Program-made: the position numbers and the translations under genes
Assembly (NCBI GenBank): GCA_014381305.1
Contig: JACNLW010000039.1
Coordinates: 1 to 50,131 of the forward strand
Length of the DNA stretch: 50,131 nucleotides
From: Planctomycetota bacterium
GTDB lineage: Bacteria; Planctomycetota; Phycisphaerae; Phycisphaerales; SM1A02
Direction of reading: 5' to 3'
In this document: positions 15,580-19,076 of the stretch, piece after piece
How the letters are laid out: the number at the start of each line of letters is the position of its first letter
Position numbering within the stretch: the stretch's first letter is position 1
Notes under the pieces: model-generated
Told to the model about the DNA's origin: nothing
Seen by the model: the letters and a program-made list of their open reading frames with translations, nothing else
Databases searched by the model: none

Positions 15580-15585
15580 TTGTAC

Positions 15586-15591
15586 ATTTTA
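15586..15591 (-). promoter_or_regulatory. Putative leaderless promoter of mnmA
   Basis: TAAAAT followed by GTACAA and the ATG. With transcription starting about 7 nt after the -10 box, the mRNA would begin at the start codon. No Shine-Dalgarno sequence is seen. Confidence 0.4.
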
Positions 15592-15627
15592 GTCGGAATT
15601 GATGCTGTACCGCTATCATCTACAAAC

Positions 15628-16578
15628 ATGTTGGTTTATGCAGGAATTGATGAGGCTGGGTACGGCCCAATGTTCGGTCCACTGTGCGTTGGGGCGTCAG
15701 TCATGATTTTGGAACAGTATGACCCTGCCAATGGCGAACCTGACCTTTGGGATATTTTGAGCGACGCAATTTGTAAAAAAAGAAGTGATCGAAGAAAACG
15801 AATTGCGGTCAATGATTCTAAAAAACTTAAATCTGGTTCAACACCCAAGGGACTCAAACATTTGGAACGTGGTGTACTTTCTTTTTTAGCCAACCAGCCA
15901 ACATCAGACAGTGATTTTTTTGCGTCTATTGATTGTGCGCTTCCAAAAAAACCGTGGACAACATTAGAGACAAAACTCCCGCTGGCCATGGACCCAAGTG
16001 CATTGCAAATTGACATTGCCTGTCTTGCACGCAATTTGAAACAATCGGGTGTTCGCTGTGATTGGTTGGCGTGTAAAGCAATTGATGTAAAAGATTACAA
16101 CGAACGCACGAGCCTCGCCTCCAAAGCCGCTCTCAATTTTGCTACTGCTATGCAACTCGTTGAGTCAATCACAATGAAATACCCTAGCGAACATCCACGA
16201 ATCATGATCGATCGACATGGTGGCCGCATTCGTTACCGCCAAGATTTACAACAAGCGTGGCCTGAAGCAAAGATTCAAATTCTTGTTGAAAATATTGAGA
16301 TGAGTCGATACCGACTCACAATTGATGGGCGAAAAGTCACGATGACATTTGCATCAAAAAGTGACGAAAAACACATGCCCGTTGCGCTTGCTTCAATGGT
16401 CGCGAAGTTTACCCGCGAACTGCACATGTTGCGATTTAACAAATATTTTGCAACGCTCGTTCCCGACATCAAGCCAACTGCGGGATACGTTCAAGACGGG
16501 CGGCGATTCCTCAAAGAAATCGAACCAATCCTCGATGAGAATAACCTTGCTCGTGAATTCCTTATTCGCAACAGTTAG
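15628..16578 (+). CDS. RNase HII-like protein with a large internal insertion
   Basis: 316 residues from ATG 15628; a TTG at 15580 abuts the divergent mnmA start and is unlikely. The N-terminus LVYAGIDEAGYGPMFGPLCVGAS matches the RNase HII active-site segment (Asp8, Glu9), and AVNDSKKLKSG matches its substrate-binding DSKKL. Later MIDRHGGRIRYRQDL and SMVAKFTRELHMLRFN resemble the C-terminal RNase HII segments. Bacterial RNase HII is ~200 residues and the GRG motif is normally present; here it reads GYG and ~100 extra residues separate the halves. It probably has an RNase H fold and acts on RNA/DNA hybrids, but activity is uncertain. TATCAT lies 8 nt before ATG. Confidence 0.65.
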   Translation: MLVYAGIDEAGYGPMFGPLCVGASVMILEQYDPANGEPDLWDILSDAICKKRSDRRKRIAVNDSKKLKSGSTPKGLKHLERGVLSFLANQPTSDSDFFASIDCALPKKPWTTLETKLPLAMDPSALQIDIACLARNLKQSGVRCDWLACKAIDVKDYNERTSLASKAALNFATAMQLVESITMKYPSEHPRIMIDRHGGRIRYRQDLQQAWPEAKIQILVENIEMSRYRLTIDGRKVTMTFASKSDEKHMPVALASMVAKFTRELHMLRFNKYFATLVPDIKPTAGYVQDGRRFLKEIEPILDENNLAREFLIRNS

Positions 16579-16640: not shown

Positions 16641-16668
16641 TTGACGAAGTGTTTTGTATTGATACAAT
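16641..16668 (+). promoter_or_regulatory. Strong sigma-70-type promoter of fusA
   Basis: TTGACG (16641-16646), a 16-nt spacer and TACAAT (16663-16668). This is the best -35/-10 pair noticed in the window. Transcription should start near 16675, giving a leader of about 290 nt before fusA. Confidence 0.75.
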
Positions 16669-16753
16669 GTGGGGCTTGCCACTGTTTTTGACGATCGGCG
16701 TCAAGCTTACAAGTGGTTGAATTGGGCGTTTCAGCGGAAAAGGAGATTTACCG

Positions 16754-16792
16754 TTGCAAGAAGATGATGAAGAAGACGCCCGGCTGCATTAA
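16754..16792 (+). CDS. Possible leader peptide (TTG start, 12 aa) in the fusA leader
   Basis: TTG 16754 follows AGGAGA (16741-16746) at 7 nt. The peptide is MQEDDEEDARLH, very acidic, ending TAA at 16790-16792 inside the junction stem. This is the only short ORF here with well-placed ribosome-binding bases. Translation is unproven. Confidence 0.3.
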   Translation: MQEDDEEDARLH

Positions 16793-16814
16793 GGCTTTCC
16801 CAAATGGGAAATGA
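16764..16814 (+). CDS. Alternative leader peptide (16 aa) in the fusA leader
   Basis: ATG 16764 opens MMKKTPGCIKAFPNGK, ending TGA at 16812-16814. It is basic and its frame runs through the 5' strand of the junction stem and the whole TTTCCC hairpin, so a translating ribosome would melt both. The ribosome-binding site is too far away (about 17 nt), which weakens the call. Confidence 0.25.
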   Translation: MMKKTPGCIKAFPNGK

Positions 16815-16964
16815 CCCGCGTGTGAGTCGGGTCAAAAATTGTGCAGCCAATCACTCGATTGGTGAAGTAAAACAGAAATAGAAATCAAGTCGCCTTTGGT
16901 AGGCGATCATTGTTATTGAAAAGGAACGCTGCGGCTCAATGCTGTAGCAAAAAGGTGAATTACC

Positions 16965-19076
16965 ATGGCTTTAGATCTAAACAAAACAAGAAACATTGGC
17001 ATTTGTGCCCACATCGATGCTGGCAAAACAACCGTAACCGAACGAGTGTTGTACTACACCGGCAAGAGTTACAAAATCGGAGAAGTACACGAAGGTACTG
17101 CAACAATGGACTTCCTCGAGGAAGAACAAGAGCGCGGCATTACCATTCAATCTGCTGCGACAACCTGCCCATGGGAATTTGATGGTGAAACATACACAAT
17201 CAACTTGATCGATACTCCCGGACACGTTGACTTCACAATCGAAGTTGAACGTTCCATGCGAGTACTTGACGGAGCAGTGGCTGTGTTCGATGCAAAGGAA
17301 GGCGTTGAAGCCCAATCCGAAACTGTCTGGCGTCAAGCAGATCGATACAACGTCCCCCGCCTCTGCCTTATCAATAAGATGGACAAAATTGGCGCAGACT
17401 TTGAATTCAGTTACAACACTGTTCGTGAACGTCTCGGTGCGAACGCTGTTGCTGTGCAACTTCCAATCGGTGCTGGTGATGAATTTGAAGGAATTGTCGA
17501 CCTCATCGAAATGAAAGCGTACTATTTTGACAGCAGCGAAATGGGCGCGGTTGTAGAACAACGTGAAATTCCTGAAGATATGCAGGAAATGGCTGAACTT
17601 TGGAAGCACGATATCGTCGAGCGAATTGCAGAACTTGATGACGAACTCACGATGCTATATCTCGAAGATGAATCTGCGATCACTCCTGAGCAACTCAAAG
17701 CTGCACTTCGACGTGCAACCCTTGAAATGCGTGCGTTCCCAACATTCTGTGGTTCAGCGCTCAAGAACATCGGCGTTCAACGCGTCCTCAACGGCGTTAT
17801 TGAATACCTACCAAACCCAACTGAAGTTCCAGAAGTTGAAGGTACGAATCCAAAAGATGAAAGTGAAAAACTTACTCGTGCACACAATGACGAGGCTCCT
17901 TTCTCAGGCCTCGTCTTCAAAGTCGTCAACGATTCACATGGTGACCTCACGTATGTGCGTGTTTACTCTGGACGTCTTGAAAAAGGAAGCCGAGTGCTCA
18001 ATCCAGTAAATGGACGAAAAGAAAATGTTTCTCGCATCTATGAAATGCACGCAAAAGATCGTGCTGCACTTGACTATGCTCCCGCTGGTTCAATTGTCGC
18101 TGTCGTTGGCTTGAAAAACTCCGGCACTGGTGACACGTTATGTGATATCAACGACCCAATTGTTCTTGAACGAATACACTTCCCTGACCCAGTGATTTCA
18201 ATGTCGATCGAGCCAATTACAAACGACGACAAAAAGAAACTTGGCGAAGCTCTTACTACGATTACACGTGAAGACCCTTCATTCCGTGCACGATATAACG
18301 ATGAAACTGGCGAGACTATTATCTCCGGCATGGGTGAACTTCACCTTGAAATCGTCAAGAACAAACTCACACGCGATCTTAAAATCGGCGTCAACGTCGG
18401 AACACCACGTGTAAGTTATAGGGAAACAATTACTGGCGTTGCTGAAAATGTTCGCGGTAAGTTCGTAAAGCAATCTGGTGGACGCGGTCAGTTTGGTGAT
18501 GTTGTTCTCAACGTTCGCCCAATGACGGAAACAGAAGCAACTGAACAAGAACTCACTATGAAAAACGGTGTTGTGTTTGTTGAGAAGATTTCTGGCGGTG
18601 CAATTCCTCGCGAATACATTTCTTCAGTTGAAGCGGGTGTTCGAGCTGCAACTGCTTCGGGTATTCTTGGTGGTTATCCACTTGTGAATGTATGCGTCGA
18701 ATTGATCGATGGTTCGTATCACGAAGTTGACTCAAGCCAAGTTGCATTTGAACAAGCTGGCGCACTCGGTTGCCGCCAAGCATGTACGCAAGCGAAACTT
18801 GCACTGCTTGAACCGATTATGAAAGTTATCATCACAACTCCAGATGAGTTCTTCGGCGCAGTCAGCGGCGATCTTGCCTCACGACGCGGTCAAATCAATG
18901 ACTCTGAAGTTCGCGGTGTCGTTCGAATCATCAATGCAGAAGTACCACTTTCAGAAATGTTTGGTTACACAACTGTCTTGCGTGGCATGACACAAGGTCG
19001 CGCTTCCTCCACAATGGAACCATCTGAGTACAAACTGATGCCAGAAGGTCTCAAAAAGGAAGTTCTCGCTTCGTAA
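16965..19076 (+). CDS. fusA: Translation elongation factor G
   Basis: 703 residues, full canonical length. EF-G is the GTPase that drives tRNA-mRNA translocation and, with RRF, ribosome recycling. The G domain is complete: AHIDAGKTT (P-loop), [17 protein letters not shown] and NKMD. Domain IV has the [17 protein letters not shown] loop region and the C-terminus [16 protein letters not shown]. It is not in a str operon: rpsL, rpsG and tuf are absent and it has its own strong promoter and long structured leader. AAGGTGA precedes ATG by 6 nt. With several EF-G copies possible in this phylum, whether this is the main one cannot be judged from the window. Confidence 0.95.

Follow-up and report, generated by a model that had tools for sequence, protein, structure and literature searches.

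A conserved leader with an acidic upstream open reading frame precedes the elongation factor G gene in Phycisphaerales

The gene for elongation factor G (EF-G) normally sits in the ribosomal-protein (str) operon, and the locus studied here raises the question of what a long, structured leader does in front of a fusA gene that lies elsewhere. The stretch analyzed, called the window below, comprises 50,131 nucleotides of a contig from a planctomycete of the order Phycisphaerales, and all features discussed are on its forward strand. In it, fusA (16965 to 19076, 703 amino acids, identified with Pfam and NCBIfam TIGR00484) is separated from its promoter (16641 to 16668) by a leader spanning 16675 to 16964. 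An initial annotation had proposed this leader as a new cis-regulatory RNA answering to translation status or a ligand. Comparison with relatives indicates that a conserved leader with an acidic upstream open reading frame (uORF) before the EF-G gene is real, and it appears to be new: an open-access literature search found no earlier description of it and no fusA leader peptide.

The genomic setting bears on how this gene could be controlled. The initial annotation treated it as a separate copy of the EF-G gene, which is misleading, as the window's fusA encodes the main EF-G (TIGR00484, 921 bits) and the other copy is a divergent paralogue. That EF-G-like paralogue (G000:C87, L051:7988-10042; NF009891, 809 bits) lies near glyA, and no acidic uORF was found upstream of it. 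At the rpsL-rpsG locus of the window's genome, rpsG is followed not by fusA but by another gene. Other families of the class have the str operon arrangement, with rpsG upstream of fusA, at 11 of 11 loci, and fusA directly after rpsG was found at none of 139 loci from the order and two neighboring families. Outside the str operon, fusA in these lineages is no longer under the known S7-operon control. The gene on its 5' side (15580 to 16578) encodes an unusual RNase HII relative of 332 amino acids whose matching stretches are separated, and this relative sits upstream of fusA in 85 of the 90 loci of the window's family. In a second family a different gene occupies that place and the acidic uORF is still present, which argues that the leader belongs to fusA.

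The strong promoter described initially is borne out. A consensus scan found TTGACG and TACAAT separated by 16 nt, matching 10 of 12 consensus positions, with a TG before the -10 element (an extended -10), and TTGAC and TACAAT/TATAAAAT are retained among the congeners compared. The RNA is also unusually stable: the predicted fold of 16675 to 16967 has an energy of -97.8 kcal/mol, none of 200 shuffles did as well (-77.3 ± 4.7; z = -4.34), and the minimum-energy fold contains the stems proposed from inspection, the three-way junction included. At gathering score, Rfam matched only a tRNA in the whole window and left the leader unmatched, and a local search of the leader with a lax threshold gave a best sub-threshold E value of 2.3, in keeping with the proposal of a new RNA. 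The leader is kept in all 12 congeners and is recognizable family-wide, so the conservation in close relatives that had been proposed as a check was found.

At the 5' end of the leader, the hairpin P1 (16679 to 16716; CCACT/AGTGG, inner TTGACG/CGTCAA) is retained in congeners with a different sequence. Fold and congener alignment both give P2 (16724 to 16781), which pairs GGGCGT (16724 to 16729) with ACGCCC (16776 to 16781) inside the uORF. Near the 3' end, a hairpin (16928 to 16948) lies immediately 5' of the fusA ribosome-binding site (RBS), as had been described. One further hairpin (16889 to 16907; GTCGCCT/AGGCGAT) is terminator-like by pattern only, and no intrinsic terminator stands out (3 terminator-like sites, against 5.3 expected from shuffles). 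The initial annotation had also pointed to a two-base overlap between TGCAGCC (16842 to 16848) and CCAATC (16847 to 16852) as a competition between structures. The overlap exists in the sequence, but it fails as a conserved switch: the CCAATC/GATTGG hairpin (16847 to 16862) is an alternative absent from the minimum-energy fold, which sidesteps the overlap by way of another hairpin, TCACT/GGTGA, and the overlap is without conservation.

Conservation within the leader is highest in a short acidic ORF that the first reading overlooked. It runs from 16754 to 16792 (TTG CAA GAA GAT GAT GAA GAA GAC GCC CGG CTG CAT TAA), begins with TTG 8 nt after the Shine-Dalgarno (SD) sequence AAGGAG (16740 to 16745), which is kept in relatives, and comprises 12 codons encoding MQEDDEEDARLH before a TAA stop. 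No other SD-preceded acidic ORF of this kind occurs on either strand of the 50-kb window, and 480 kb of control DNA contained one. All 12 congeners have the uORF, reading MQ (or ML), four to six D/E residues, A, R or Q, L, and H, N, or R, and their versions vary by one-codon indels, D/E replacement, and TAA/TGA exchange.

To follow the uORF beyond the genus, we collected fusA upstream regions from about 90 loci of the window's family, from 60 loci of other families of the class, and from a further 80 named loci of species genomes, mostly Phycisphaerales or Phycisphaerae metagenome-assembled genomes. An exact-pattern search of the family matched the genus only, the pattern being too strict. With the uORF itself defined strictly (an SD, 9 to 14 codons, and at least four D/E among residues 2 to 10), 16 of 42 genera in the window's family have it; shuffled sequences gave 0.01 ± 0.1 and the reverse strand 0. 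In the second family, 12 of 19 genomes have it, where shuffling gave 0.02. An acidic mini-ORF of the form MxxDE(3-6)... thus lies 180 to 420 nt 5' of fusA in at least two families of the order, with peptides such as MPNDEDDDARPR, MQHEEDEHARLR, LLDEDKDARLR, LPDEDEDAPLRC, MPGDDEEDPG, and MSDDDEVARLY in the window's family, MDEEEEIRLQ, MDDEDDTAAC, MESRDEDDEAGSH, and MTSTDEDEDADPR in the second, and LNDEDD in a third. Across families, ATG and TTG starts are swapped, D and E are swapped, indels are codon sized, and stops are conserved. Some genera of the window's family have lost the uORF together with the long 5' untranslated region (5'UTR), and none was seen in the fusA upstream regions of two other families of the order. 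On a contig labeled Gammaproteobacteria (L258, JAJFJO010000184.1), the acidic uORF MDDNDTASEGD precedes a Phycisphaerales-like fusA; the contig is probably misbinned.

Other small ORFs were seen in front of fusA elsewhere in the class. Members of another family (L175, L177, L178, L180, L196, L271, L272, and L274) have their own tiny SD-preceded uORF of the form [M/V]K[I/L][E/Q][P/L]x-stop (for example, GTG AAG ATC GAG CCC CAT TAG) about 230 to 370 nt upstream of fusA, with a conserved stretch resembling GGCTCATGCTGACC after it. In a further family (L181 to L184), an 8-codon uORF with an SD, MKLL[I/V]DIx-stop, lies about 230 to 290 nt upstream and is followed by GCCCATGCC. Leader peptides for EF-G may have arisen in several forms within the class.

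In all, 86 distinct leaders carried a scored acidic uORF, and their differences have the marks of translation. Asp or Glu occupies codons 3 to 7 in 53, 86, 78, 85, and 59% of them, respectively; 55 start with ATG, 30 with TTG, and 1 with GTG, and all three kinds of stop are used. Length differences between leaders are whole codons, GAN codons stay in phase in AT-rich and GC-rich genomes alike, and nearest-neighbor substitutions at codon positions 1, 2, and 3 number 50, 53, and 89. As comparative evidence, this demonstrates that the acidic ORF is conserved and selected and that its acidic residues are selected as residues. Codon changes between D and E number 31 among 43 nearest-neighbor pairs, and this free interchange means that charge is preserved rather than tRNA identity. 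In two leaders (L095, LLDEDE-stop, and L108, LQEEDW-stop), the uORF ends straight after the acidic run while the downstream helix strand is retained. For that reason the acidic run looks like the functional part of the peptide, and we infer that the A-R-x-x codons after it serve mainly RNA pairing.

That pairing could be followed across genera. On the raw genus alignment, in which MAFFT misplaced helices, the RNAalifold consensus was poor for that reason, and the helices were redefined per clade. Covariation was judged by pair counting with shuffles and slid-partner controls. The start hairpin P2b (helix 1) pairs CAGCGG (16732 to 16737) with CCGTTG (16751 to 16756). Its loop carries the SD, its 3' arm includes the start codon, and two-sided changes occur at six of six pairs across genera. 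In P3, the last uORF codons (GGCTGCA, 16782 to 16788) pair with a downstream strand (TGCAGCC, 16842 to 16848), so that a change in the uORF from GCCCGGCCACGC to GCCCGGTCACGC is mirrored downstream by GCGTGATGCCGGGC and GCGATGACCGGGC. The compensatory changes proposed as a check on the structure are thus present: in a 59-row alignment, which was fitted to the model and so is biased towards structure, though an unfitted alignment (A1) agrees in direction, P2b and P3 together score 0.308 for covariation, where shuffles give 0.151 and slid partners no more than 0.074, and two-sided changes fill 111 cells, compared to 45.5 in shuffles. In 45 of the 86 leaders, downstream pairing by the 3' end of the uORF surpasses about 95% of shuffles; by this comparison, P3 went undetected in many leaders of the second family. 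P2 takes the form GGCCTC with GAGGCC in other congeners and covaries within the genus; family-wide it is barely above shuffles and so not supported as a general helix.

A core covariance model built from 16 leaders, with the window's genus excluded, found 16725 to 16854 as its sole convincing match in the window's genome (E = 4.1e-6; next, E = 1.35). Of 301 genomes from the order, 35 gave a match, one in each, and within the window's family the matches whose coordinates could be compared lie at the fusA leader. Two weak matches in another family (E of about 5e-4), one on a different contig from fusA, are probably due to chance. The element is single copy and upstream of fusA.

The helices P4 and P4a also covary, and in the group of leaders with ARxR, P4a shares its downstream strand with P3. 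In many relatives, P4a and P3 would compete, since the same strand forms either one. The three-way junction in the window's species is closed by P3 (GGCTGCA(T), 16782 to 16789, with (G)TGCAGCC, 16841 to 16848), which encloses a P4-like hairpin (16796 to 16811; TTTCCC/GGGAAA) and a P4a-like hairpin (16812 to 16834; TGACCCG/CGGGTCA) whose counterpart covaries in other genera, and here P3 is compatible with the P4a-like hairpin. Read from sequence, then, the comparisons establish structure and coding in one element and its linkage to fusA only, with pairings predicted to be mutually exclusive in many relatives.

Previous studies suggest how such an element might work. Early acidic residues destabilize translating ribosomes in bacteria and eukaryotes, and such nascent chains abort translation (PMC9718836). 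In Escherichia coli, this effect underlies the control of mgtA by MgtL and is opposed by the ABC-F protein EttA (PMC11282234). In Salmonella, alternative stem-loops mediate the control of mgtB by the 8-residue MgtQ, which has Asp2 and Glu5 (PMC8092293). From these precedents, a translation-aborting leader peptide is the likeliest reading of the uORF, and we think it moderately probable that the leader as a whole is a translation-dependent attenuator, built around the translated acidic mini-ORF, that tunes fusA. A ribosome would start at the SD displayed in the loop of the start hairpin and within a few codons make the Asp/Glu run, where the early acidic nascent chain would slow or destabilize it (intrinsic ribosome destabilization). 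If the ribosome failed on the acidic run, the end of the uORF would be free for P3; a ribosome reaching the stop would open P3, as the last codons (A-R-x-x-stop) are its 5' strand. The choice between P3 and the alternative downstream hairpin would then set fusA expression. By analogy with mgtL and mgtQ, the most likely direction is that abortion raises fusA, so that EF-G would go up when elongation is in trouble.

At which level this control might act was approached by folding the 86 leaders both free and with a ribosome placed on the uORF. The predicted accessibility of the fusA RBS hardly responded (median, 0.06 kcal/mol; P = 0.06), and masking of the RBS was rejected as the switch, given the lack of a consistent effect of uORF occupancy. 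This predicted independence makes control through transcription, possibly with Rho, or through mRNA stability likelier than RBS masking. A Rho-type bias of C over G in the spacer is significant overall (P = 9e-15) and absent in the window's genus. EttA proper (TIGR03719 over cutoff) was found in only 2 of 8 genomes and was rejected as a required partner. It seems absent from the three genomes tested of the window's genus (G000, G003, and G008), which have only a Uup-like ABC-F protein; G077 and G139 have it.

The abortion mechanism has to be weighed against readings that place the signal elsewhere. The possibility that the RNA is purely structural, a riboswitch-like binder of a protein or ligand with the ORF as a by-product, would fit the strong covariation and the clear use of the last codons for base pairing. 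We regard it as very improbable, given the in-phase GAN codons, the start and stop swaps, the whole-codon indels, and the SD that is kept, and given a second family that retains the acidic peptide where P3 is undetectable in many members. As to the ligand half of the initial proposal, few unpaired positions are invariant across genera and the conserved part is the ORF, so that a ligand aptamer is not supported. Regulation by translation status fits the acidic uORF. If instead the codons are what is read, the runs of Asp and Glu codons resemble those of classical attenuators and would sense charged tRNA-Asp or tRNA-Glu. The D-E swaps counted above leave no single amino acid in the control codons, EF-G is not an Asp or Glu biosynthesis gene, and no intrinsic terminator stands out; an attenuator of this type was rejected and seems highly unlikely. 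The loss of the leader in several genera with short 5'UTRs would agree with a leader that has no regulatory role and serves only as a standby site or for ribosome loading, yet the deep conservation of an acidic, hard-to-translate peptide is unexpected for loading alone, and we hold this to be very unlikely.

Two further readings accept an aborting uORF and differ in what it senses. A sensor of Mg2+ or ribosome integrity resembling mgtL, in which translation of the uORF would be aborted at low Mg2+ or by weak ribosomes and EF-G would rise as a result, would account for an early acidic peptide of the MgtL/MgtQ kind; we consider it a minority possibility, since no Mg2+ transporter or other Mg2+ gene is linked and the target is a translation factor. 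Autoregulation by EF-G, in which the EF-G level alters drop-off of the acidic peptidyl-tRNA and so feeds back on fusA through a uORF that gauges EF-G activity, is also unlikely as stated, though it has points in its favor: the controlled gene is the translocase itself, fusA lies outside the str operon in these lineages, and in vitro a high EF-G level favors both the mistranslocation of short peptidyl-tRNAs and their drop-off, acidic and MgtL-type peptides being named by the authors as likely inducers (PMC8934632). Against it, the direction seen for mgtL and mgtQ would give positive feedback, and negative feedback requires the opposite direction. Feedback of EF-G on its own leader is therefore attractive, unproven, and conceivable with either sign. 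A broader form of the abortion mechanism, that after fusA left the str operon a fragile acidic leader peptide came to read translocation capacity or ribosome stability and to feed back on EF-G, is a tentative idea to which we give some credence.

If true, such a self-sensing circuit would be the first known case of leader-peptide control of a core elongation factor, as judged from the open-access search. Known leader peptides of the acidic, ribosome-destabilizing kind belong to a few Mg2+-transport genes of enterobacteria. If the same held across an order at EF-G, it would show nascent-chain fragility controlling the translation machinery itself and explain how EF-G supply can be set once fusA leaves the str operon, and the 86 distinct leaders would offer a natural comparative set for the acidic sequences on which ribosomes fail.

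Among known systems, the str operon leader with its S7 control of fusA in E. coli is alike in controlling EF-G supply, as is proposed here; it differs in that fusA does not lie behind rpsG in the bacterial order to which the window belongs and no Rfam ribosomal leader matches. The antibiotic-sensing uORFs of the ermC, msrD, and topAI type are alike in that the translation state of a uORF chooses the RNA structure, again as proposed here, whereas they stall on drugs and the fusA uORF has a housekeeping target and no recognized motif for drug-dependent arrest. Closer in form is mgtQ of Salmonella mgtB, likewise a tiny acidic ORF. It overlaps alternative stem-loops, and its acidic codons reduce translation of the uORF itself while increasing expression of the gene behind it, traits that are proposed for the fusA leader too; mgtQ frees the mgtB RBS, whereas the fusA RBS is predicted to be unaffected, and gene and phylum differ. 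With mgtL of mgtA in E. coli and Salmonella, the fusA leader shares a short, early-acidic leader ORF and, in our proposal, a translation-dependent choice of RNA structure and control of the downstream gene. The mgtL peptide (MEPDP...) is proline rich and controls a Mg2+ importer through Rho, whereas the fusA leader has a longer D/E run, another sequence and structure, and EF-G as its target, and it belongs to the Planctomycetes.
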